Origin: Planctomycetota bacterium
GTDB lineage: Bacteria; Planctomycetota; Planctomycetia; Planctomycetales; Planctomycetaceae
DNA length: 64,000 bases
Reading direction: 5' to 3'
Assembly: GCA_027623235.1 (NCBI GenBank)
Contig: JAQBVJ010000017.1
Location: forward strand, 1 to 64,000
The notes under the pieces are model-generated. The model made no database searches, was not told the origin of the DNA, and was given only the letters and a program-made list of their open reading frames with translations. Position numbers and translations under genes: made by a program. Positions 39,965-58,186 of the stretch are shown one piece after another (within the stretch, counting starts at the first letter, position 1; the number at the start of each line of letters is the position of its first letter).

Positions 39965-40321
39965 AAGAGATCGCATCCTGTCATTTTCAGAAGGTGAGCA
40001 GGGCTTCCCGTTCGGAGGCCCGCAGAACAGATCGTTAGTCGTGTGGTTCCTGGTCTTTTGGCTGGCCGATGTCTGATTGTCAACGGTTTCAGAATATGTG
40101 ACGGGATTGACTTTGAGCTGGCTGGAATTTAGGACGGCGACGTCAGCCTGCGGGAATTCGTCGGGCGAGACGGAAAATTGGCAAGATAGCGCGGCGCGTA
40201 CGCGTGCTCGCCCTGGAAGCGAAGCCGGGCAGGCGTCCCTGCCCTGCTTTCTTTGTTTCCGTGCAGACTATTAACATGGCCGGTCATCCGCAGAGCTACC
40301 TCGATTCGGAGTTTGCTGAAT
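39965..40321. other. divergent intergenic region
   Basis: No gene is supported. TTGACT at 40107-40112 has no convincing -10 partner. A GGGCAGG/CCTGCCC hairpin (40227-40244, 4-nt loop) followed by TGCTTTCTTTG looks like a forward-strand terminator or attenuator about 80 nt before the FAD oxidoreductase start, but could also be a repeat. Confidence 0.4.
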
Positions 40322-42583
40322 ATGAACGCGTCTCGTTTTTGCATCCTTGCCCTCCTGTTGGCCGCTTCCCCGGCGTTTGCTCAGTCCGTTCTTGTGGAGG
40401 CCGAGAGCTTTGACTCTCACGGCGGCTGGAAACTCGACACGCAGTTCATCGACACGATGGGCTCGCCGTACCTGCTGGCTCACGGGCTGGGGACTCCGGT
40501 CAAAGACGCGGCAACGACGGTGACCTTTCCGGAAACGGGTGAGTACAAAGTCTTTGTCCGGACCAAGGACTGGGTCGCCCGCTGGAAGGCGACCGGTACT
40601 CCGGGCCGGTTCCAGCTGCTGATTGCCGGCTCACCTTTAAAGACCGAGTTCGGCACGACCGGAGCTGACTGGCACTGGCAGCCAGGCGGCACGGTGACGA
40701 TCACCGAAAAGAAAACGGACCTCGCCCTGCGGGACCTGACCGGCTTCTGTGGCCGCTGCGATGCGATCCTGTTTACGAAGGGCGACGTTCCGCCGAACGA
40801 CGACACGATTCTGCCGAAGTGGCGGCGCGAACTGCTCGGCCTGGCCGAGAAGCCGACTGAGAAATCCGGCTACGATCTGGTTGTGGTCGGCGGCGGCTAC
40901 GCCGGAATGGGAGCGGCTCTTTCTGCCGCGAGAATGGGCTGCAAGGTGGCACTCATTCAGAACCGCCCGGTGCTGGGTGGAAACGGATCGAGCGAAGTCC
41001 GTGTCTGGGCGATGGGCCTCATTCGGCGAGGCAAGTACCCGCGCATTGGCGAGATCATCGAAGAGTTCTGCGATCACGCCAAGAAATCGCCGGGCACCTA
41101 CGAGGAGTTCGGCGACGCCCTCAAAGAAAAGGTTGTCCGGGACGAGCCGAACATCGACCTGTTTCTGAATCACCATGCCTACCGGGTCGAGACCGCAGAC
41201 AACCGGATCACCGCCGTCCACGCGTTTGACACTCGCACCAGCGAGCACAAGCGGTTTGGCGGAAAGCTGTTTTCTGACTGCACCGGACACGGCACGGTCG
41301 GGTTTCTGGCGAACGCCGATTCGGACATGACTGACAAAGGCCGCATGGGCATGAGCAATATGTGGGCGTGGGGCGAGGGCGAGAAACCGGCGACGTACCC
41401 GCAGACTCCGTGGGCTCTCGACCTGGAGATGAAAGACTTTCCCTACCCGCGCGAGCATCACGGACAGTGGTTCTGGGAAAGCGGCTTCGACAAAGACGCG
41501 CTCGGCGACGCCGAAGGCATTCGCGACTGGAATCTGCGAGCCGTGTTCGGCGCGTTTAACGCGATGAAAAATCGCGACGGCGCGGACCAGCACAAAACGG
41601 CCTTCCTCACCTGGGTGGCCTACATCGGCGGCCCGCGCGAATCGCGGCGACTGCTGGGCGACATCGTGCTCGAACAGAGCGACATCGTCGATAAGAAAGA
41701 ATTTCCCGATGGCTGCGTGCCGAGCACCTGGTCCATCGACCTGCACTACCCCAAGCAGCAGTACGCGGAAAAGTTTCCCGACAACCCGTTCATCGCGATC
41801 GCCGTTCACGACCGGCGGATCGATCGGCTCTATGGCTACCCCGTGCCGTACCGCTGTTTCTATTCGCGAAACATCGAAAACCTGTTCATGGCCGGCCGAA
41901 ACATCAGTGTGACTCACCAGGCTCTGGGGACGACGCGCGTCATGAAGACCTGCGGAATGATGGGAGAGGTTGTCGGCAAGGCTGCCTCGATCTGCACGCT
42001 GCAGACCTGCACTCCGCGCGACGTTTACGAGCGGTACCTCGATGACCTGAAGAAGCTGCTTGAGTTGCCCGGCAAAGCACGCCGCGAAACCGTTTCGTCC
42101 GAGATCATCATCCCCAAAGATGCTCTGCCGCTGGCTGGACAGTTCGGGCCGCCGACCGGTCTCGATCCGGAAAAACTGGACGGAGTCATTATTGACGACG
42201 CAGACGCGAAACAAACCGGCAAGTGGACCAGCGGCTCCGGCCTCAAAGGTTATGTCGGCTACAACTACCTTTACGCAGGCGCGAATTCCGGAGCGAAAAT
42301 CGCCTTCGAGTACAAAGCGGAGAAAGCCGGCTCGCACGAGATTCGCCTCGCCTACTGCCCGCACGAAAACCGCGGCAAAACAGTTCCGGTCACGGTCAAA
42401 ACGAAGGCGGGCGAGAAGTCGCTGAAGATCGACATGACAAAATCGCCTCCGATCGACGAGACGTTTATCTCACTGGGAAGCCTGAATCTTGCGAAGGGAG
42501 AATCGGTCACCGTGACAATCTCGACCGAGGACGCCGGAGGCAATGCTCACGCCGACGCGATTCAGATTCTGCCGGCTGACTGA
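40322..42583 (+). CDS. exported FAD-dependent oxidoreductase with golvesin-like C-terminal domain
   Basis: A 753-residue exported protein: signal peptide FCILALLLAASPAFAQS, an N-terminal carbohydrate-binding-like domain (SVLVEAESFDSHGGWKLDT to about residue 165), a FAD oxidoreductase core starting at DLVVVGGGYAGMGAALSAAR (dinucleotide-binding GxGxxG) with GGNGSSEVRVW, and a C-terminal golvesin/xanthan-lyase-like domain (VIIDDADAKQTGKWTSGSG to the end) that probably binds sugar polymers. Proteins of this plan are abundant in planctomycetes and probably oxidise polysaccharide-derived substrates in the periplasm. The ATG at 40322 gives the signal peptide. The flavin protein downstream starts 8 nt later, suggesting an operon. 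Confidence 0.88.
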   Translation: MNASRFCILALLLAASPAFAQSVLVEAESFDSHGGWKLDTQFIDTMGSPYLLAHGLGTPVKDAATTVTFPETGEYKVFVRTKDWVARWKATGTPGRFQLLIAGSPLKTEFGTTGADWHWQPGGTVTITEKKTDLALRDLTGFCGRCDAILFTKGDVPPNDDTILPKWRRELLGLAEKPTEKSGYDLVVVGGGYAGMGAALSAARMGCKVALIQNRPVLGGNGSSEVRVWAMGLIRRGKYPRIGEIIEEFCDHAKKSPGTYEEFGDALKEKVVRDEPNIDLFLNHHAYRVETADNRITAVHAFDTRTSEHKRFGGKLFSDCTGHGTVGFLANADSDMTDKGRMGMSNMWAWGEGEKPATYPQTPWALDLEMKDFPYPREHHGQWFWESGFDKDALGDAEGIRDWNLRAVFGAFNAMKNRDGADQHKTAFLTWVAYIGGPRESRRLLGDIVLEQSDIVDKKEFPDGCVPSTWSIDLHYPKQQYAEKFPDNPFIAIAVHDRRIDRLYGYPVPYRCFYSRNIENLFMAGRNISVTHQALGTTRVMKTCGMMGEVVGKAASICTLQTCTPRDVYERYLDDLKKLLELPGKARRETVSSEIIIPKDALPLAGQFGPPTGLDPEKLDGVIIDDADAKQTGKWTSGSGLKGYVGYNYLYAGANSGAKIAFEYKAEKAGSHEIRLAYCPHENRGKTVPVTVKTKAGEKSLKIDMTKSPPIDETFISLGSLNLAKGESVTVTISTEDAGGNAHADAIQILPAD

Positions 42584-48411: not shown

Positions 48412-49164
48412 TCAGTCGAAAAGCCACTTCGGTTTTTCATCGGCACCGGGGGCGAGCGAGTCGAGCGACTTGTTTCGCGGCAGCACGCTCAGGAGTGCTT
48501 CCGCCATTTTCAGATCGTCCTGCGTCGTGATTTTGATGTTCAGCGGAGATCCCGGGACGACGGACACCACGTGGCCGAGCCGCTCGACGAGCTGTGCTTC
48601 GTCGGTCGGTTGAAAGTCGCCGCGCTTCGAAAACGCTTCGACGAGAATCTCACGCGAAAACACCTGCGGAGTCTGTGCAGCGAACAGGCCGGTGCGGGGA
48701 ACGGTTTCCTTGATGACTCCGGAATCAACTCGTTTGATGGTGCTCGAAATCGGGCTGGCTGGAATCGCGGCACCGGATTCTCTGGCGGCGGCGAAAACCT
48801 CTTCGATCCCGTCGGCCGTCATCATCGGTCGTGCGGCGTCGTGGACGGCAACGAAGTCGATCTCACTTCGCACTCGTGACAAAGCGTTCTCGACGGAATC
48901 TGCCCGTTCCTCACCGCCAGCGACGATTTCGAGCTCCATGAACGTGATGTTCGGCCTGAACTTCTCCTGAAACCACTCGATGTCTTCCGGAGCAAGCACC
49001 ACGAGCATCTGCTCAACATCGGGGCGAGCATGAAACAGTTCAGCCGCGCGCAGCCATATCGCACGGCCGCTGAGCTCTCGAAACGTTTTCTTGTCCCGAG
49101 TCGAATCTGCCCCGAACCGCGAACTCCGTCCGGCTGCGGCAAGGATCACGGCGAACTTTGCCAT
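48412..49164 (-). CDS. ispD: 2-C-methyl-D-erythritol 4-phosphate cytidylyltransferase
   Basis: A 250-residue IspD, the third enzyme of the non-mevalonate isoprenoid pathway, joining MEP and CTP to CDP-ME in the cytoplasm. The N-terminal loop VILAAAGRSSRFG (residues 6-18) holds CTP, and DFVAVHDAARPMM (around residue 105) and the late PTDEAQLVERLG (about 197-208) are the other conserved segments. Length 250 is somewhat longer than the usual 230 because of a tail after MAEALL. ATG 49164 matches the family start directly. The gene follows an exported hypothetical by 74 nt on the same strand. Confidence 0.92.
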   Translation of the reverse strand: MAKFAVILAAAGRSSRFGADSTRDKKTFRELSGRAIWLRAAELFHARPDVEQMLVVLAPEDIEWFQEKFRPNITFMELEIVAGGEERADSVENALSRVRSEIDFVAVHDAARPMMTADGIEEVFAAARESGAAIPASPISSTIKRVDSGVIKETVPRTGLFAAQTPQVFSREILVEAFSKRGDFQPTDEAQLVERLGHVVSVVPGSPLNIKITTQDDLKMAEALLSVLPRNKSLDSLAPGADEKPKWLFD

Positions 49165-49238
49165 GTTGAAGCGGCCTCCTCTGCCCGGGTCCAATGCGAT
49201 CGCAAGCCTGCGATCGCCCAAGCCACTGCGGCTGGAAA

Positions 49239-49871
49239 TCAAAGTTCGACAGGCTCCTCTTTTTTCTCGTCAGCATCGATCGCGATTCGTAATGCCTTCG
49301 CCGCTTCTTTGACGGTCTTCGAGGGGCCTGCCATTTTCAGATAGTACGGCGCCCGACCTTCCTTCGTCAGAATCAGCGTCACCATCGCACCATCCTCCAG
49401 CGGCTCTGGCCGTGGGGCGAAGGACGACCCGACGTGTGTCCCGGTCAGCTCGGTGATTGTGTACTCGCCCTGCGGACATTTGCCCGTATGAGCTTTCACC
49501 TTGAGGGTGCCGGATTTGAATTCGCCGGTCCAACGCGGCAGATTCTGTGTGAATGAGCCGCCGCCTGGCATGACGAACACAGCCAGCTCCGTCCCGACAG
49601 TGTCGCCCTCGGCTTTCGGAATCGCGAACTGAGCAGCCCGCATCCGGCTCGTCGGCTCTTCCTCTTTCCAGCCTTCCGGAATTTTGAGCACGACATCTTT
49701 GATTTTCACGTCGCGCAGTTTCGGCTTCTTCTCCTCTTTCTTGTCGTCCTTTTTCTCGACCTTCGCGTCGTCATCTTTTGTTTCTTTTTTGTCCTCGGCG
49801 GAAAGCGGACTGACAACGAAACCGAAAACGGCGGCGAGGCACAACACGTGTGCGGCACGGGTCAGCGTCAT
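49239..49871 (-). CDS. exported hypothetical protein
   Basis: A 210-residue protein with a signal peptide (AHVLCLAAVFGFVVSPLSA, cleaved before EDKK) and a very Lys/Asp/Glu-rich linker (residues 25-52) before a compact domain (LRDVKIKDVVLKIPEGWKEE, FVMPGGGSFTQNLPRWTGEF, YYLKMAGPSKTVKEAAKAL). No known family is recognised, although the domain resembles small exported proteins annotated in planctomycetes. A GGAG ribosome site precedes the ATG. Same strand as ispD, 74 nt upstream. Confidence 0.75.
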   Translation of the reverse strand: MTLTRAAHVLCLAAVFGFVVSPLSAEDKKETKDDDAKVEKKDDKKEEKKPKLRDVKIKDVVLKIPEGWKEEEPTSRMRAAQFAIPKAEGDTVGTELAVFVMPGGGSFTQNLPRWTGEFKSGTLKVKAHTGKCPQGEYTITELTGTHVGSSFAPRPEPLEDGAMVTLILTKEGRAPYYLKMAGPSKTVKEAAKALRIAIDADEKKEEPVEL

Positions 49872-50816: not shown

Positions 50817-50836
50817 GTCAGGCTCTGCCTGACGAA
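50814..50836. terminator. hairpin GTCAGGCTCTGCCTGAC overlapping both stop codons
   Basis: GTCAGG at 50817-50822 and CCTGAC at 50828-50833 form an 6-bp stem with an inner CT/TG loop, directly at the point where the SDR and the fusion gene converge (stops at 50816 and 50818). The same motif, GTAG(G/T)TCAGGC-n-TGCCTGACGAA, is found twice at 55046-55134. So it is a dispersed repeat used as a bidirectional terminator. Confidence 0.7.
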
Positions 50837-52518
50837 GTCGCACCGCGTCGCCTCGCCACAAACAACTTCGGAGCCGCGGGCACTCCCTCGACGGCCTCCA
50901 CGTCGACTTCGAACGACGCCTCGTCGAGCGAACGGAACAGCGCCTTAACAGCGAGCGTTTCCTCGTCGCCTCCAGCATGACCCGGATAGGCGAGCACGGT
51001 CACGACTCCACCAGGTCGAATCATCGCCAGCGAGACTCGCAGCGCGATGATCGTTGACCCGGTCTGAGTGATGACGGATTTGTCGCCACCCGGCAGGTAG
51101 CCCAGGTTGAACATCACCGTGGCGATTGTTCCGTGATGCCACTCCGGAATCTCCGCGTTCAGACCCGAGTGGTCGCACTCCCGCAGAGTCGCGTTGGTCA
51201 GCCCGCCTTTGGCGAGCCGTTGCCGGGTCTGTTCGATCGCCGCAGGTTGTCGGTCGAAGGCGAAAACAGTTCCCTCGCTGCCGACCAGCTCTGCCAGAAA
51301 ACAGGTGTCATGCCCGTTGCCGGCCGTGGCATCGACAGCCGTCTCGCCTGGCTTCACGACCGCTCGAACAATCTCGTGAGCTCGCTCGGTCAACCGTTTC
51401 CCACGCTGGCGGCGAGGAGCCGATGACGCAGCCAGCGTTGAAACCGGATCCGCCTGGAGCGAAAACCGGCTGACCACATCCACTTCCTGGTCGAGCGGCG
51501 TCCCATCAAGTAGCAGCTTCGTCATTTGCTCGGAAAGAAGCGGCGCCTGCAGCGATCCCTTTGAGCCGAGCCCGTTGAAGATTCCGATCTGAGGGTGTTC
51601 CGGATGAAAGCCGAGCACCGGGTGGCGGCCGACAACGATCGGTCGCACCCCGGCAGAATGCTCGACGACTTCAAACGGCAGGCGAAGGAATCGGCGAAGC
51701 CGCTCACAAATTTCCTCGCGGCCCAAGTCGGTCGGTCCGGCATCGAGGCAATTCCAGTCGTAGGTGGCGCCCGCCCGAAAAAGCTCATCCCCAAGCGGAA
51801 CGAGCCAGACCCCGCCATTGACGATGCGCGTTTCACTCAAACCGGGAATCCGCAACGTGAGAATCTCACCGCGTGTCGCGTCAAACTGAACCTTTTCAAA
51901 CCAGCCGTTTCTTGAACCAGCGAACCCCTGGCAGAAGACGACTCGCTTCGTTGTGTAGTTTTGCGGGGTCAACTTGACGAGACCGGATTCGATCTCGATG
52001 TCGCCGGTCGAGTCGACTTCACCCGTGAGGTAAATGCCCAGGCGTTGAAAATGGCTGCGCGACGACGTCAAAAACGAAGCAACGTTGAGCCGCGCGGCCA
52101 GTGGGATCTCAAAGCTGCCGTATTCGACGTTAAAGGCTTGTTGACTGACAGGTGGCGCAGGTTCGCGAATCCAGTCCGCCGCTTCGACTGGGTCGCGTTT
52201 TTGAAATCGCTGACGCTCGACTTCACTGGCGAGAATTCGCACCTGGCCCGGCTCCGCAAAGAAAGCCGCTCCCGTTTCGGCTTCGACCCGGCGATAGAAT
52301 GACGCCGCTGTCGGCCAGAAATCGGCGAGTCTCCAGGTCGGAACGAGCCGTTGTCCGGTGACAGGTGTCATCAGACCGGCCGCAATCCGTGAGGCGGAAT
52401 GCACGTCTTCCCGATCGATGACCAGAACGCGAGCTCCCCGCCAGAGCAGCTGCCAGGCGAGCGTTGTCCCGGCAAGGCCCTGGCCGATGACCACACAGTC
52501 ATAGGTGTCGTCGGTCAT
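50818..52518 (-). CDS. fusion of FAD-dependent oxidoreductase (MnmC(o)/MnmL-like) with MnmM/YtqB-type methyltransferase
   Basis: A 566-residue two-domain cytoplasmic protein. Residues 1-345 are a DAO-type FAD oxidoreductase (FAD motif CVVIGQGLAGTTLAW, 8-22; IAAGLMTPVTGQRLVPTW, typical of MnmC(o)-like relatives). After a basic linker (around 367-376) residues 377-566 are a SAM methyltransferase of the YtqB type, with VDATAGNGHD (395-404) and NLGYLPGGDK (471-480). YtqB has been reported to be MnmM, which methylates nm5s2U to mnm5s2U in tRNA; FAD-domain relatives of MnmC and MnmL strip the carboxymethyl group to give nm5. So the fusion may do both steps. MnmC has the methyltransferase first and is from another methyltransferase family. 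ATG 52518; 8 nt after the EF-hand gene. Confidence 0.85.
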   Translation of the reverse strand: MTDDTYDCVVIGQGLAGTTLAWQLLWRGARVLVIDREDVHSASRIAAGLMTPVTGQRLVPTWRLADFWPTAASFYRRVEAETGAAFFAEPGQVRILASEVERQRFQKRDPVEAADWIREPAPPVSQQAFNVEYGSFEIPLAARLNVASFLTSSRSHFQRLGIYLTGEVDSTGDIEIESGLVKLTPQNYTTKRVVFCQGFAGSRNGWFEKVQFDATRGEILTLRIPGLSETRIVNGGVWLVPLGDELFRAGATYDWNCLDAGPTDLGREEICERLRRFLRLPFEVVEHSAGVRPIVVGRHPVLGFHPEHPQIGIFNGLGSKGSLQAPLLSEQMTKLLLDGTPLDQEVDVVSRFSLQADPVSTLAASSAPRRQRGKRLTERAHEIVRAVVKPGETAVDATAGNGHDTCFLAELVGSEGTVFAFDRQPAAIEQTRQRLAKGGLTNATLRECDHSGLNAEIPEWHHGTIATVMFNLGYLPGGDKSVITQTGSTIIALRVSLAMIRPGGVVTVLAYPGHAGGDEETLAVKALFRSLDEASFEVDVEAVEGVPAAPKLFVARRRGATSSGRA

Positions 52519-53488: not shown

Positions 53489-54952
53489 TCAGGATTTCTG
53501 ATCGTCTTTCTTCAAAGTGACGTCCAGTTTGAATTGAAAACCGTACTGGCTGTCTCGCCCGGACCGGTTGTTTTCTTTCGATTGAACATCGACGTTTTTC
53601 CGTTCGAGCAGTTCCGCGTTGAGCGTTTGCGCGTCCGCCCGCTCCTTCGCGTACCCGGTCAGAGTGACGTTGCCCTTCTTCGTGCTGTTTCCGCCGGTCA
53701 GGCGAATCTGCGTCAGGTACTGTCGATCGGTCCCCCGGATCGTTTCGGTAAGCCACATCGATTCGTCGAGCCAGTTGACATTCTGGTCGGCCCAGCCATC
53801 AACGGTTTTTGCAATGTCGACCTGCGGGCCAAGTTCCTTCAGCAGCTCCTTCTGCGAGTTTGTCTCAGCCTGCGCTGCTGTTGTCGCCTTTTCCAGTGCG
53901 GCCACCTGCATGCCACGGTAGACGTAGAATCCGAAGATGACGATGAGCCCCGCAGCGACGGCGGCGATTCGTTTGATCTGCTTGAGGTCCCGCTTGACGG
54001 CGGCGCGTCTCGGGTTGAGGAAGTCGAGTGTCCGCGACGACTCGTAACGACGACCGAGCAGCATGCCGATCGGGCCTGCGTAGGCCGCGTGAGATTCGTC
54101 ACCGGGTTCCGTGCTGACCGTCATGCCCTGAGCGGTGAAGGGGTCGACACGGTTCAGGATACAGCGGAAGCGCTCGTGAATCGCGGCCGCAAGGTCTGAA
54201 TCTTCACCGGGCGATCCGAGGATCCAGGCGCGAGCGATTCGAGCGTCCGGGAGCCGCTTTTGAAGAGCGATCATCGAACGGCTGATATCTGCCAGAATCG
54301 ACGACTGCGACTGAGCCGCGTTATTGGAGTCGACCTGAGTTGAGTGCGAGAAGTAAAGATTTCCCTGGCCGAGGATTGACAGTTCAATGCGGTCACCGTG
54401 CCGGGCGATGATCAGGCTCAGCTCGCCCGCCCTGGCAGACTTCTCTTCGGGTGTCTCGGACACCAGATGAGTCGCGGCGATCGACGACACTCCGACGGCA
54501 CTCAGGTCGAGCCCGGCCGCGGCGAACGTCGTCCGCGTGTCTCGAATCTTCTTGCGATTGATGCTCGCCACAAGAACTTCCCGCCCCTGAAACCCCTCGC
54601 GAGGAGTCATCGGCAGATAGTCAAGAGCCAGCTGGTCCAGCGGAATCGTCGACCGCGAGGCGGCCTGAAAGCGGACGAGTTCCGGCAGTTCGTTATCGCT
54701 GACTGGCGGCAGTTCGAGGTGCCGCACGACGACATCTTCCCGAGGCACGGTCAGGTACACGCTCTTCGCGGAAATCCGCGCACGCTGGAATTCGCCTTTC
54801 AGCCATGCGCCGACCTCAGCCGGATCACTCAGCGTCGCAGGAACGTCGAAACTGAAGCTGGAATGAATCTTCAGCGAGCCAGCGGCCAGGTCGGCCTGCA
54901 CGCCGCAGACGCGGTGCGAATTCCAGTCAATTGCAAGTACATCAGCCATCAT
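53489..54952 (-). CDS. gspL: PilM/PilN fusion (GspL-like) assembly platform protein
   Basis: A 487-residue protein with an actin-like PilM domain (VLAIDWNSHRVCGVQADL at the start, nucleotide-binding pocket motifs SLIIARHGDRIELSILGQG) up to about residue 320, a single membrane helix (RIAAVAAGLIVIFGFYVYRG) and a periplasmic coiled-coil/ferredoxin-like region, i.e. the GspL plan (PilM cytoplasmic plus PilN-like). GspL recruits the GspE ATPase to the inner membrane. The gene sits after GspK. No separate GspM gene is seen. Two adjacent ATGs at 54952 and 54949 are equally possible. Confidence 0.85.
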   Translation of the reverse strand: MMADVLAIDWNSHRVCGVQADLAAGSLKIHSSFSFDVPATLSDPAEVGAWLKGEFQRARISAKSVYLTVPREDVVVRHLELPPVSDNELPELVRFQAASRSTIPLDQLALDYLPMTPREGFQGREVLVASINRKKIRDTRTTFAAAGLDLSAVGVSSIAATHLVSETPEEKSARAGELSLIIARHGDRIELSILGQGNLYFSHSTQVDSNNAAQSQSSILADISRSMIALQKRLPDARIARAWILGSPGEDSDLAAAIHERFRCILNRVDPFTAQGMTVSTEPGDESHAAYAGPIGMLLGRRYESSRTLDFLNPRRAAVKRDLKQIKRIAAVAAGLIVIFGFYVYRGMQVAALEKATTAAQAETNSQKELLKELGPQVDIAKTVDGWADQNVNWLDESMWLTETIRGTDRQYLTQIRLTGGNSTKKGNVTLTGYAKERADAQTLNAELLERKNVDVQSKENNRSGRDSQYGFQFKLDVTLKKDDQKS

Positions 54953-55045
54953 CAGGCCTCATCGTCGATTGACGTCTCAGCGGCTCCAACCGTGTTTCGT
55001 GCTGTTCCCTGCGTAATACCGTTTTCGGGCGATGATCGCCCACCC

Positions 55046-55134
55046 GTAGTTCAGGCTTTGCCTGACGAAATCCCTGCTTGAATGCGGACCACCCGTCGAT
55101 CCGCTTTCACTTCGTCAGGCACAGCCTGACCTAC
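55046..55134. repeat. inverted pair of the TCAGGC-n-GCCTGA repeat overlapping gspK stop
   Basis: GTAGTTCAGGCTTTGCCTGACG (55046-55067) and the inverted CGTCAGGCACAGCCTGACCTAC (55113-55134) flank about 45 bp. The motif also occurs at 50814. The second arm includes the gspK stop codon (55131-55133). Each arm can fold by itself and with the other. Confidence 0.75.
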
Positions 55135-56819
55135 TTACTACTCGCTCCGGAGAGCTGTTCGCTGGTGTATCCTCGCCCGAGTTCCGTCAGGTCGCTGACG
55201 GAGAGAATTCTCGCGGGATACTCGGTCGCGTCAATTGTTGCTTCCAGACGAGTATACCCCCCTCCTTCGCCAAAATAGCCAAGAACTTGAGCTCGATAAA
55301 CCTGCCCGCGTCCTGTGACATACCGGTCCAGTGTGACCATCGTCGGGATGTCGACGATCCCCTGGCTAAGCATCCAGCCGGCAGTCGCTCGAATCGGACT
55401 CGTATCATCCATCATGGAATTCTGAGAAATCGCGACAGCCGCGGCTTCCGTCATGTTTGGAATTCCCAGCAGCGTTTCCAGACGAGCCTGATTGACGTTA
55501 ATCCGACCGGGAATCGAACTCTCATCAAGCGTGGTCAGTCGATCGAGGATGTCCGGCAGGTACGACTCCATGTCGCCGGAGTTGTTGGCCCAGGGACTGT
55601 CGAGCAGAACCAACTGTCCGTCGATCGCGATTTCGACCCGGGCTCCAATCATTTCGTAAATCGAAACGAGGTCGCCCGCGGCGCCTTTCGAGAGGTCCAT
55701 GCCGCCCCGAGTCACCGTGCCTCCGCCACCAGCCACCGCGTTGGCAACTCCTTCCGCGATGTCCGAAACGATTCCCTGTGTGGCTCGATTCACCGCCTCT
55801 GCGTTTGCTGTTTCCGCTTCGGCGTCGCTTAACGTGGCACCGTTCGTCGCGGAATTGAGGGCCGCGATCAGATCACTGTCCTCATCGGTAAACAGCGGCT
55901 CGTAAGGTCCGTTGAGCCGAAATGCGACGACAAAACGTGCGACGTCTTCGTCGAACTCTTCGAGCAGCATGTCGTACAGGTCGGTGAGAACACCGTTGTT
56001 GACGTTGATCTTTTCCGACCCGTCCAGCCGCTTGTTGAGCTCTTTCGCGTCGACGGTCAGGTAAGCGGCCCAGCCGGGATTCAGAATCCCGTCGGCATTG
56101 TCGAGCGGCAGCGAAGCGTCGCCGTCGTTCTCATTCGGATCGAGCAGCCCGTTCCGGTTCGTGTCCTCACCGTACAGCAAGTCAGGAGTGACTCCCGCAA
56201 CAAGCAGCAGTTCCTCGAGCGACTCCAGCGGTCCGTCCTTCGCAGCGTGTGGCGGGTCCTGGTCGAGGTAGTAGTCGCTCTCGACACCGAATTCGCGAAT
56301 CGACGTGTCTTCGTCAATGTAGTCGAGAATGGCGTCCGCAAGCTCTTCCGTCATATTCGGCAGATACATGAGCATGCCGCGAGTGTCTTCGTCGCTCATT
56401 TCCCTGGCGACGATCGCGTTGAGATTGATCCGGCCCGACTCGTCCATCAGACCAAACCGGATTCCGCCGTTGCCCGACGCGGACTCAATCGCCGCGACCA
56501 CCGCGAAGTAGCCCTGCCCGCGTTCGGACTCTCCCTCGCGCATCAACTGAGCCTGGAACCGTGCCGGATTGTTGTACGAGAACTCGTCACTTGAGGATTC
56601 CGGCGCACCGATCGTGGCGGCAGCAAGTTCAAGACCAGACTCGGCAAACGCACGGCTCTCCGCCTGGCGACCGTACATTGAGGTCGCTTCAATTTCCGAA
56701 ATCATCAACTCGGAAAATGTGTAAGCCCCCAGAGTCAGCGCCGCCACAACGATCAGAACGAGGATCAGAACGGTTCCCCGCCGCGTCGCGTTCTGGTTTG
56801 AGGTGAGTGTGTTTTTCAT
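55131..56819 (-). CDS. gspK: GspK minor pseudopilin-like protein
   Basis: A 562-residue GspK: N-terminal prepilin-like helix (RRGTVLILVLIVVAALTLGAYTFSELM), then a long exported domain with many Asp/Asn-rich metal-binding-looking loops (EDTNRNGLLDPNENDGDA and IREFGVESDYYLDQDPP) and a C-terminal helix-hairpin-helix-like stretch (VNQARLETLLGIPNMTEAAA), as is known for GspK. GspK caps the pseudopilus with GspI and GspJ. The usual prepilin Gly-Phe site is less clear (RRGTVL). The start ATG at 56819 is followed by a typical basic leader. A repeat overlaps the stop. Confidence 0.88.
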   Translation of the reverse strand: MKNTLTSNQNATRRGTVLILVLIVVAALTLGAYTFSELMISEIEATSMYGRQAESRAFAESGLELAAATIGAPESSSDEFSYNNPARFQAQLMREGESERGQGYFAVVAAIESASGNGGIRFGLMDESGRINLNAIVAREMSDEDTRGMLMYLPNMTEELADAILDYIDEDTSIREFGVESDYYLDQDPPHAAKDGPLESLEELLLVAGVTPDLLYGEDTNRNGLLDPNENDGDASLPLDNADGILNPGWAAYLTVDAKELNKRLDGSEKINVNNGVLTDLYDMLLEEFDEDVARFVVAFRLNGPYEPLFTDEDSDLIAALNSATNGATLSDAEAETANAEAVNRATQGIVSDIAEGVANAVAGGGGTVTRGGMDLSKGAAGDLVSIYEMIGARVEIAIDGQLVLLDSPWANNSGDMESYLPDILDRLTTLDESSIPGRINVNQARLETLLGIPNMTEAAAVAISQNSMMDDTSPIRATAGWMLSQGIVDIPTMVTLDRYVTGRGQVYRAQVLGYFGEGGGYTRLEATIDATEYPARILSVSDLTELGRGYTSEQLSGASSK

Positions 56820-56861
56820 GACGATTCCGCTGGCATGTCGCATCTCAGAGGTAACCCGCCT

Positions 56862-57749
56862 TCAAAACGCGAGTGCTTCAAACGGGTTGGCTGCAGAAAG
56901 TGGCACGACAAGGTTGTACTCACGAGTCATCTCGCTGGCCGATCGCCGAGTAATCGACTGCTCGTCCAGCGATTCGTCACGAAACCGAATCTTGATTCCG
57001 ACCGCGTTGGGTAAACGCCCTTCCGCCTGGCTGTCCCACTCGGAAAGCCACTCGTAACCATCGTGATACTCGAACTGAAGCGACTCGATTTCTGTCGCGA
57101 TCAGGCGAGCTTCGGACGTCATCGTTGCGGCTTCGGATGGGTCTTCCATCAGCGACAGCGAGAGCGGGCTGCCAATCATCCGGGCGACGCCAGTCGGGCC
57201 TTCCTTCAAACCTGACAGCCGTGAGCCGGGATCAATCAGGTCGCCATAAGTTGCAGCCATGGAACCTGCACCGCCAACCAGAAAGTACGAAACGGTCTGC
57301 AGGTTGCCGACCGGCGCTGCCACGCCAGTCGCAGAACCAGCGGACGGGCGCCGAGGCCGGTTGATGTGAATGACGATCGATTCGCTGTCGCCAAACAAGC
57401 CGAGGCTTCCGCCGGCGAACGCGAGATCGGGATCTGTGTAGACGATCTCTGGTTCGACGGTTGTTGTTTCCTCCTCGGCCGCTGTGGCGTCGTCTGTTTC
57501 TTCTTCCTCTGGGACCTCTTCCGGACGGTAGACAGTCGAGCGGATGTCGGCTGCCATCTGACTCAGCAGAGACCGCGCGATCTGGCTTCGCTCGACCTCA
57601 ATCTGCCCCATCGTTGAAAATCGATAGTGCAGATCCATCGCCGTGTAGAGCATCGTCATCAGCGTCAGCGTTAAGGCCATCGCGAGAAGCAGTTCAACGA
57701 GCGTGAAGCCCCGGTTCGGGATCCTGACAGGAGAAGAAGCGTTCCGCAT
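56862..57749 (-). CDS. gspJ: GspJ minor pseudopilin-like protein
   Basis: A 295-residue prepilin. The type IV prepilin-like leader RGFTLVELLLAMALTLTLMTML is at residues 12-33, with the cleavage site Gly-Phe-Thr-Leu-Val-Glu. A conserved Glu+5 is present. The later, acidic linker (PEEVPEEEETDDATAAEEE) is unusually long for GspJ. ATG 57749 is chosen; it shares its first base with the stop of gspI, giving a one-base overlap (TGATG). GspJ is a tip subunit of the pseudopilus. Confidence 0.88.
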   Translation of the reverse strand: MRNASSPVRIPNRGFTLVELLLAMALTLTLMTMLYTAMDLHYRFSTMGQIEVERSQIARSLLSQMAADIRSTVYRPEEVPEEEETDDATAAEEETTTVEPEIVYTDPDLAFAGGSLGLFGDSESIVIHINRPRRPSAGSATGVAAPVGNLQTVSYFLVGGAGSMAATYGDLIDPGSRLSGLKEGPTGVARMIGSPLSLSLMEDPSEAATMTSEARLIATEIESLQFEYHDGYEWLSEWDSQAEGRLPNAVGIKIRFRDESLDEQSITRRSASEMTREYNLVVPLSAANPFEALAF

Positions 57750-58186
57750 CACGGCGCGTCCTCCTCAACCGAGTCTTCAAACACCGCCGGATCACGGATC
57801 AGTTTCGAAAGCGAGACCGACGTTGAAGACAGATCGCTCTGTCCGTTGTAGGTAACCGTGACCGTGACAAAGAGGACGTCAGCGTGCGGCCCGCCGGAAG
57901 TCGCGAGCGACCATGTCCAGTTTTCGTCATCCTGAAACGACTGATCAGAGATGTCTTCGAGTGGCTCGATGGCCGCGGAAATTTCGGCCAGCTTCGACTC
58001 GCACCGCAGGATGGCCTGTGTGTCGAGCCGGCCTTTCACCGCAGCGGACATTCCATTCGTCGTGAGCTGGCTGAGAGCCGTGACCGCTCCCACAAAGATC
58101 GTGATCGACAAAACGACTTCCAACAACGAGAGCCCGGACCGCACGTTGCGGCTGCTGGCTTTCGAGGTGGTTCGAAGTCGACGCAT
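57749..58186 (-). CDS. gspI: GspI minor pseudopilin-like protein
   Basis: A 145-residue prepilin with leader RSGLSLLEVVLSITIFVGAV at residues 16-36. The cleavage site is G-L-S-L-L-E with the conserved glutamate at +5. The rest is a small alpha/beta domain with acidic C-terminus (VFEDSVEEDAP). GspI interacts with GspJ and GspK at the pseudopilus tip. It lies 27 nt after gspH and overlaps gspJ by one base. Confidence 0.88.
   Translation of the reverse strand: MRRLRTTSKASSRNVRSGLSLLEVVLSITIFVGAVTALSQLTTNGMSAAVKGRLDTQAILRCESKLAEISAAIEPLEDISDQSFQDDENWTWSLATSGGPHADVLFVTVTVTYNGQSDLSSTSVSLSKLIRDPAVFEDSVEEDAP

Follow-up and report, generated by a model that had tools for sequence, protein, structure and literature searches.

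The locus examined here raises the question of whether a single bacterial protein could complete the tRNA wobble nucleoside mnm5U by joining an FAD oxidoreductase to a methyltransferase of a kind different from that of MnmC. The window, meaning the whole 64,000-nucleotide stretch of planctomycetal DNA that was analyzed, carries on its minus strand a gene (50818..52518, 566 aa) that encodes an N-terminal DAO-type FAD oxidoreductase followed by a C-terminal MnmM methyltransferase. In the pathway proposed for this protein, MnmE and MnmG would make cmnm5U at tRNA wobble position 34, the FAD half would then oxidize the side chain derived from glycine at its N-CH2 bond so that glyoxylate is released and nm5U is left, and the MnmM half would methylate nm5U with SAM to give mnm5U.

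The fused gene begins with an ATG at 52518 and ends with a stop at 50818, and only the minus strand has an open frame here; the first-pass annotation, made from the letters alone, gave the right coordinates and left out the strand. Only 9 bp separate the ATG from the stop of the upstream ORF on the same strand. The FAD half (residues 1-352; 51463..52518, minus strand) contains the FAD fingerprint VVIGQGLAGTTLAWQ at residues 8-22, an Arg292 that is invariant in its family and the motif FNGLGSKG at residues 314-321, and matches the Pfam DAO model at 7-334 with 93 bits. It is followed by a linker (residues 353-374, also delimited as 353-375; 51397..51462, minus strand) with the basic stretch PRRQRGKR. 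The MnmM/YtqB half (residues 375-560; 50839..51396, minus strand) carries VDATAGNGHD at residues 395-404 and NLGYLPGGDK at residues 471-480, and matches PF06962 at 418-540 with 116 bits. An AlphaFold model of the fused protein, built with 68 sequences, has a mean pLDDT of 93.1 and a disordered segment within the linker (residues 359-371, pLDDT < 50). The Pfam matches and motif positions confirm the original description of one 566-residue frame in which an FAD domain, a basic linker and a YtqB-type SAM domain succeed one another.

Because the window is part of a 253-contig assembly, the fusion could in principle be an artefact, of assembly or of frame, confined to a single metagenome bin. Fused homologues with 37-55% identity are present in dozens of other genomes, however, so the fusion of the window gene is not an assembly error. 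A check of 41 loci at the DNA level finds the identical architecture at 26 of them, including one in the single-contig genome G291, with MnmM adjoining the FAD gene at 14 loci and lying elsewhere at 1, and the fused architecture is also found in 17 named contigs. An artefact, which the 26 fused loci refute, retains practically no likelihood.

MnmM has been shown to convert nm5U to mnm5U with SAM in B. subtilis and S. aureus, and the residues essential in the B. subtilis enzyme are K11, D34, N101, Y104, K110, Y141 and H144 (PMC9976899). The methylase half resembles MnmM (YtqB) of B. subtilis, S. aureus and plants in family, fold and catalytic residues. Against NF053511, the NCBI-curated MnmM equivalog with a cut-off of 135 bits, the whole fused protein scores 173.8 bits and the domain alone 177.2 bits, and this model is matched by every one of 30 scanned methylases, of which 29 are encoded next to FAD genes and the other is that of the window. 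A Foldseek comparison of the methylase half of the model with B. subtilis MnmM (8h0s) gives a TM score of 0.93 and an rmsd of 1.7. Six of the seven essential residues are kept (D34 as D404, N101 as N471, Y104 as Y474, K110 as K480, Y141 as Y511 and H144 as H514), and K11 is replaced by His381, a substitution that is also usual among the relatives examined. The first-pass annotation had assigned the C-terminal domain to the MnmM/YtqB type and had made its reading depend on the presence of MnmM residues; the score above the cut-off, the kept residues and the fold match all agree with that assignment. The identification of this half as MnmM is thus well supported, and methylation of nm5(s2)U34 is its predicted activity. 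Known MnmM proteins stand alone, whereas here the enzyme either forms one chain with an FAD oxidase or shares an operon with it.

The histidine in place of K11, here and in most relatives, would suit a reading in which the resemblance to MnmM masks a changed specificity and the pair acts on another wobble side chain or on another RNA. Apart from K11, both the U34-contacting residues and the catalytically essential ones are nevertheless kept, and structure 3eey likewise has His at the K11 position. The same reading could draw on the failure to find MnmG in the window's own assembly (93.65% complete, 253 contigs), in which only a 23-bit fragment was detected. Against this, an MnmG match is present in 60 of 61 genomes of the window's family, and the match exceeds the cut-off in 56 of the 61, including the complete, fusion-bearing G291; for this reason the gap in the window's assembly probably reflects incompleteness, and loss of the whole pathway from this genome was discarded as an explanation. 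With MnmG nearly universal in the family, a different substrate is very improbable. Separately, a 776-aa ORF at 40253-42583 on the plus strand contains an internal FAD-binding motif and scores 23 bits to the first 30 MnmG positions; it is not MnmG.

For the FAD half, the choice lies between a relative of the MnmC1 oxidase and a glycine oxidase. All 30 members of its family that were scanned match the MnmC1 model TIGR03197, the window protein itself with 61.6 bits and therefore below the curated cut-off of 174.2 bits. Its highest NCBIfam score, 74.4 bits, is to the ThiO model TIGR02352, and the folds nearest to it in a Foldseek search with the AlphaFold model are iminodiacetate oxidase (6pxs) and glycine oxidases, with MnmC lower. 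These results would fit an FAD half that is a ThiO-like glycine oxidase of the thiamine pathway, or another amino-acid oxidase, joined to MnmM by chance; only the methylase would then act on tRNA, and nm5U would come directly from MnmEG and ammonium. The ThiO score, however, is far under the cut-off of 250.8 bits, and the GH[F/Y]RNG motif of ThiO is absent. In its place the FAD half has FNGLGSKG, as compared with LGSRG in MnmC1, so that a GS[K/R]G motif is common to the FAD family and MnmC1. Arg292 aligns with R567 of E. coli MnmC, and its equivalent in ThiO is presumably the carboxylate-binding arginine R302. An invariant arginine of this kind is consistent with a substrate that, like cmnm5U, bears an N-carboxymethyl group. 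Iminodiacetate is, like cmnm5U, an N-carboxymethyl secondary amine, and the fold match to 6pxs is for this reason also counted for a cmnm5U substrate. The FAD half is like ThiO and the iminodiacetate oxidase IdaA, which oxidize N-CH2-COO groups, in its fold and carboxylate-binding arginine, but ThiO and IdaA act on small molecules. Among the eight residues that are more than 98% conserved in MnmC (G271, G273, G287, G518, R567, G578, G619 and R653), seven are kept across the FAD family, with R653 outside the aligned region in most rows and several of the residues common to ThiO.

A tree of the FAD family with 7 MnmC1 sequences, 3 ThiO sequences and other DAO enzymes places the FAD family and MnmC1 together against ThiO and the other DAO enzymes with support of 98/92. 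The FAD family (100/100) and MnmC1 (100/98) form neighboring clades on long stems, and the FAD family is not nested within MnmC1. An AU test rejects a grouping of the FAD family with the ThiO-like enzymes (p 0.026) and does not reject a grouping of MnmC1 with them (p 0.071), which leaves the sister relation between the FAD family and MnmC1 less than firm. Cut-off, motif and tree all speak against ThiO/glycine oxidase as the identity of the FAD half, and a distinct clade that is sister to MnmC1 is the likely, though not proved, placement from these alignments. The first-pass description of a convergent MnmC therefore holds for the methylase half, which is a non-homologous replacement, and does not hold for the FAD half, which is probably a relative of MnmC1.

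The pairing of this FAD family with MnmM is recurrent and not a one-off. The first-pass annotation had proposed a survey of the domain fusion across Planctomycetota, and the pairing recurs there as well as in Verrucomicrobiota and some other bacteria. In the window's family, 103 of 170 genomes have the gene or genes; about 49 of these 103 are fused by a hand count of the listed rows, and in most of the others the FAD and MnmM genes adjoin and often overlap. Scanning the FAD alignment against 84,980 species genomes finds at least 565 relatives. Among the best 80 of these, MnmM is part of the same gene in 17, follows immediately downstream in the same orientation in 44 and is not a neighbor in the remaining 19, so that 61 of the 80, from many genomes, are fused to MnmM or directly upstream of it. 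The record titles of the best 80 include Planctomycetota, Verrucomicrobiota, Acidobacteria bacterium Mor1 and Hyphomicrobiales, many of them metagenome bins for which single titles may be wrong. On the FAD gene tree the fused/unfused label switches at least 11 times, with 6 switches forced by well-supported branches, and these switches do not separate fusion from fission. An additional suspected fusion in G259 (locus L024), where MnmM lies inside an open frame of 720 aa, was rejected because that frame is simply long and GC-rich and contains no related domain.

For the 19 FAD genes without an MnmM neighbor among the best 80, MnmM lies elsewhere in 7 genomes, in 1 of them as two fragments under the cut-off. 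No MnmM over the cut-off was found in the other 12 (L101, L103, L104, L105, L106, L109, L112, L119, L123, L130, L153 and L158), which belong mostly to Gemmataceae and Isosphaeraceae and have at most marginal matches to PF05430, the canonical MnmC methylase. In these FAD-only genomes the modification either stops at nm5U or is completed by another methylase. A FAD gene without MnmM in this group is also what a glycine oxidase joined to MnmM by chance might lead one to expect, whereas the recurrence of the MnmM linkage across phyla speaks against a chance joining.

The remaining question is whether these genomes have another route to mnm5U. PF05430 was not found in the window's genome, as the first-pass annotation had suggested checking, and gives only marginal matches in 3 of 61 family genomes and in 4 of 36 other FAD-bearing genomes. 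PMC12548931, citing Jaroch 2024 as its reference 33, equates MnmL with YtqA. The FAD half is like MnmL in that it is predicted to carry out the cmnm5-to-nm5 step ahead of MnmM. MnmL (YtqA) is presumably a radical-SAM enzyme of the TIGR01212 family, and Jaroch 2024 (J Bacteriol), the abstract of which is said to mention fusion proteins, reportedly describes it as the radical-SAM partner of MnmM. The predicted FAD oxidation differs from radical-SAM chemistry, and the two folds are unrelated. The first-pass annotation had counted MnmL as an FAD-family enzyme; this was mistaken, since MnmL is the radical-SAM protein YtqA of TIGR01212 and is absent here, which leaves no FAD 'MnmL' to be fused. At a TIGR01212 cut-off of 180 bits, with E. 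coli positive as a control, the best score in the window's genome is 33.9 bits and none of the 61 family genomes has a match over the cut-off. Only 1 of 30 FAD-bearing genomes exceeds it, as compared with 3 of 5 planctomycetes that have MnmM and lack the FAD gene (Fisher p 0.006, in a small sample that is not corrected for kinship). TIGR01212 presumably also takes in E. coli YhcC-type proteins, so a match is no proof of MnmL and absence is the stronger statement. Genomes that carry the FAD gene thus almost always lack MnmL, and this anticorrelation likewise argues against a glycine oxidase joined to MnmM by chance, which on the whole is unlikely.

The preferred reading is that the fused protein finishes mnm5(s2)U34, the FAD half converting cmnm5U to nm5U and the MnmM half nm5U to mnm5U, and this is quite probable. 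What the FAD half acts on, and which nucleoside these organisms finally make, we infer from domain identities, residues, fold, linkage and absent alternatives. The first-pass proposal that a single protein performs both steps survives as a prediction on these grounds, without its identification of the FAD half as MnmL. The structure, domain order and activities of MnmC, in which the methylase comes first, are described in PMC3648344. Like the bifunctional MnmC (MnmC2-MnmC1) of E. coli and Yersinia, the fused protein has a DAO-type FAD domain and a SAM methylase in one chain, with the same two steps predicted and with the GS[K/R]G motif and invariant arginine retained. Unlike MnmC, it has a C-terminal PF06962/MnmM methylase instead of an N-terminal PF05430 domain, in agreement with the reversed domain order and different methylase family that the first-pass annotation proposed, and its FAD half is a clade separate from MnmC1 and under the MnmC1 cut-off. 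It would therefore be an MnmC-like finisher with reversed domain order and another methylase family. In Planctomycetota and Verrucomicrobiota the FAD clade would normally accompany MnmM as its gene partner and may there replace the radical-SAM MnmL, and the fusion would be a repeated rearrangement of the two-gene operon.

The pair-bearing genomes surveyed have MnmM without MnmC and almost always without MnmL, so the enzyme of the middle step is unnamed there; the FAD-MnmM pair is a candidate for it, and the fusion makes a one-gene test possible. On balance, the FAD half appears to represent a previously unrecognized family, sister to MnmC1, that gives MnmM its cmnm5U-to-nm5U step in Planctomycetota, Verrucomicrobiota and some other bacteria, forming a third mnm5U route beside MnmC and MnmL-MnmM with several fusion origins. 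If so, different methylases have been combined with different dealkylating enzymes to finish a near-universal wobble modification in the same two steps, and a fused bifunctional enzyme has arisen more than once. A literature search found no paper linking MnmM with Planctomycetes; Jaroch 2024, on alternate mnm5s2U routes, lay outside its coverage and may already note FAD-MnmM fusions in part.

On the same strand of the window as the fused gene, positions 53489-58186 hold a gene cluster of the type II secretion/type IV pilus type. It comprises a PilM-like protein (53489-54952), protein K (55131-56843), protein J (56862-57752) and an ORF adjoining protein J that has a prepilin-like N-terminus (57749-58186), all on the minus strand. 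On the other side of the fused gene, the minus strand also encodes IspD, 2-C-methyl-D-erythritol 4-phosphate cytidylyltransferase (48412-49242; PF01128, 191 bits).
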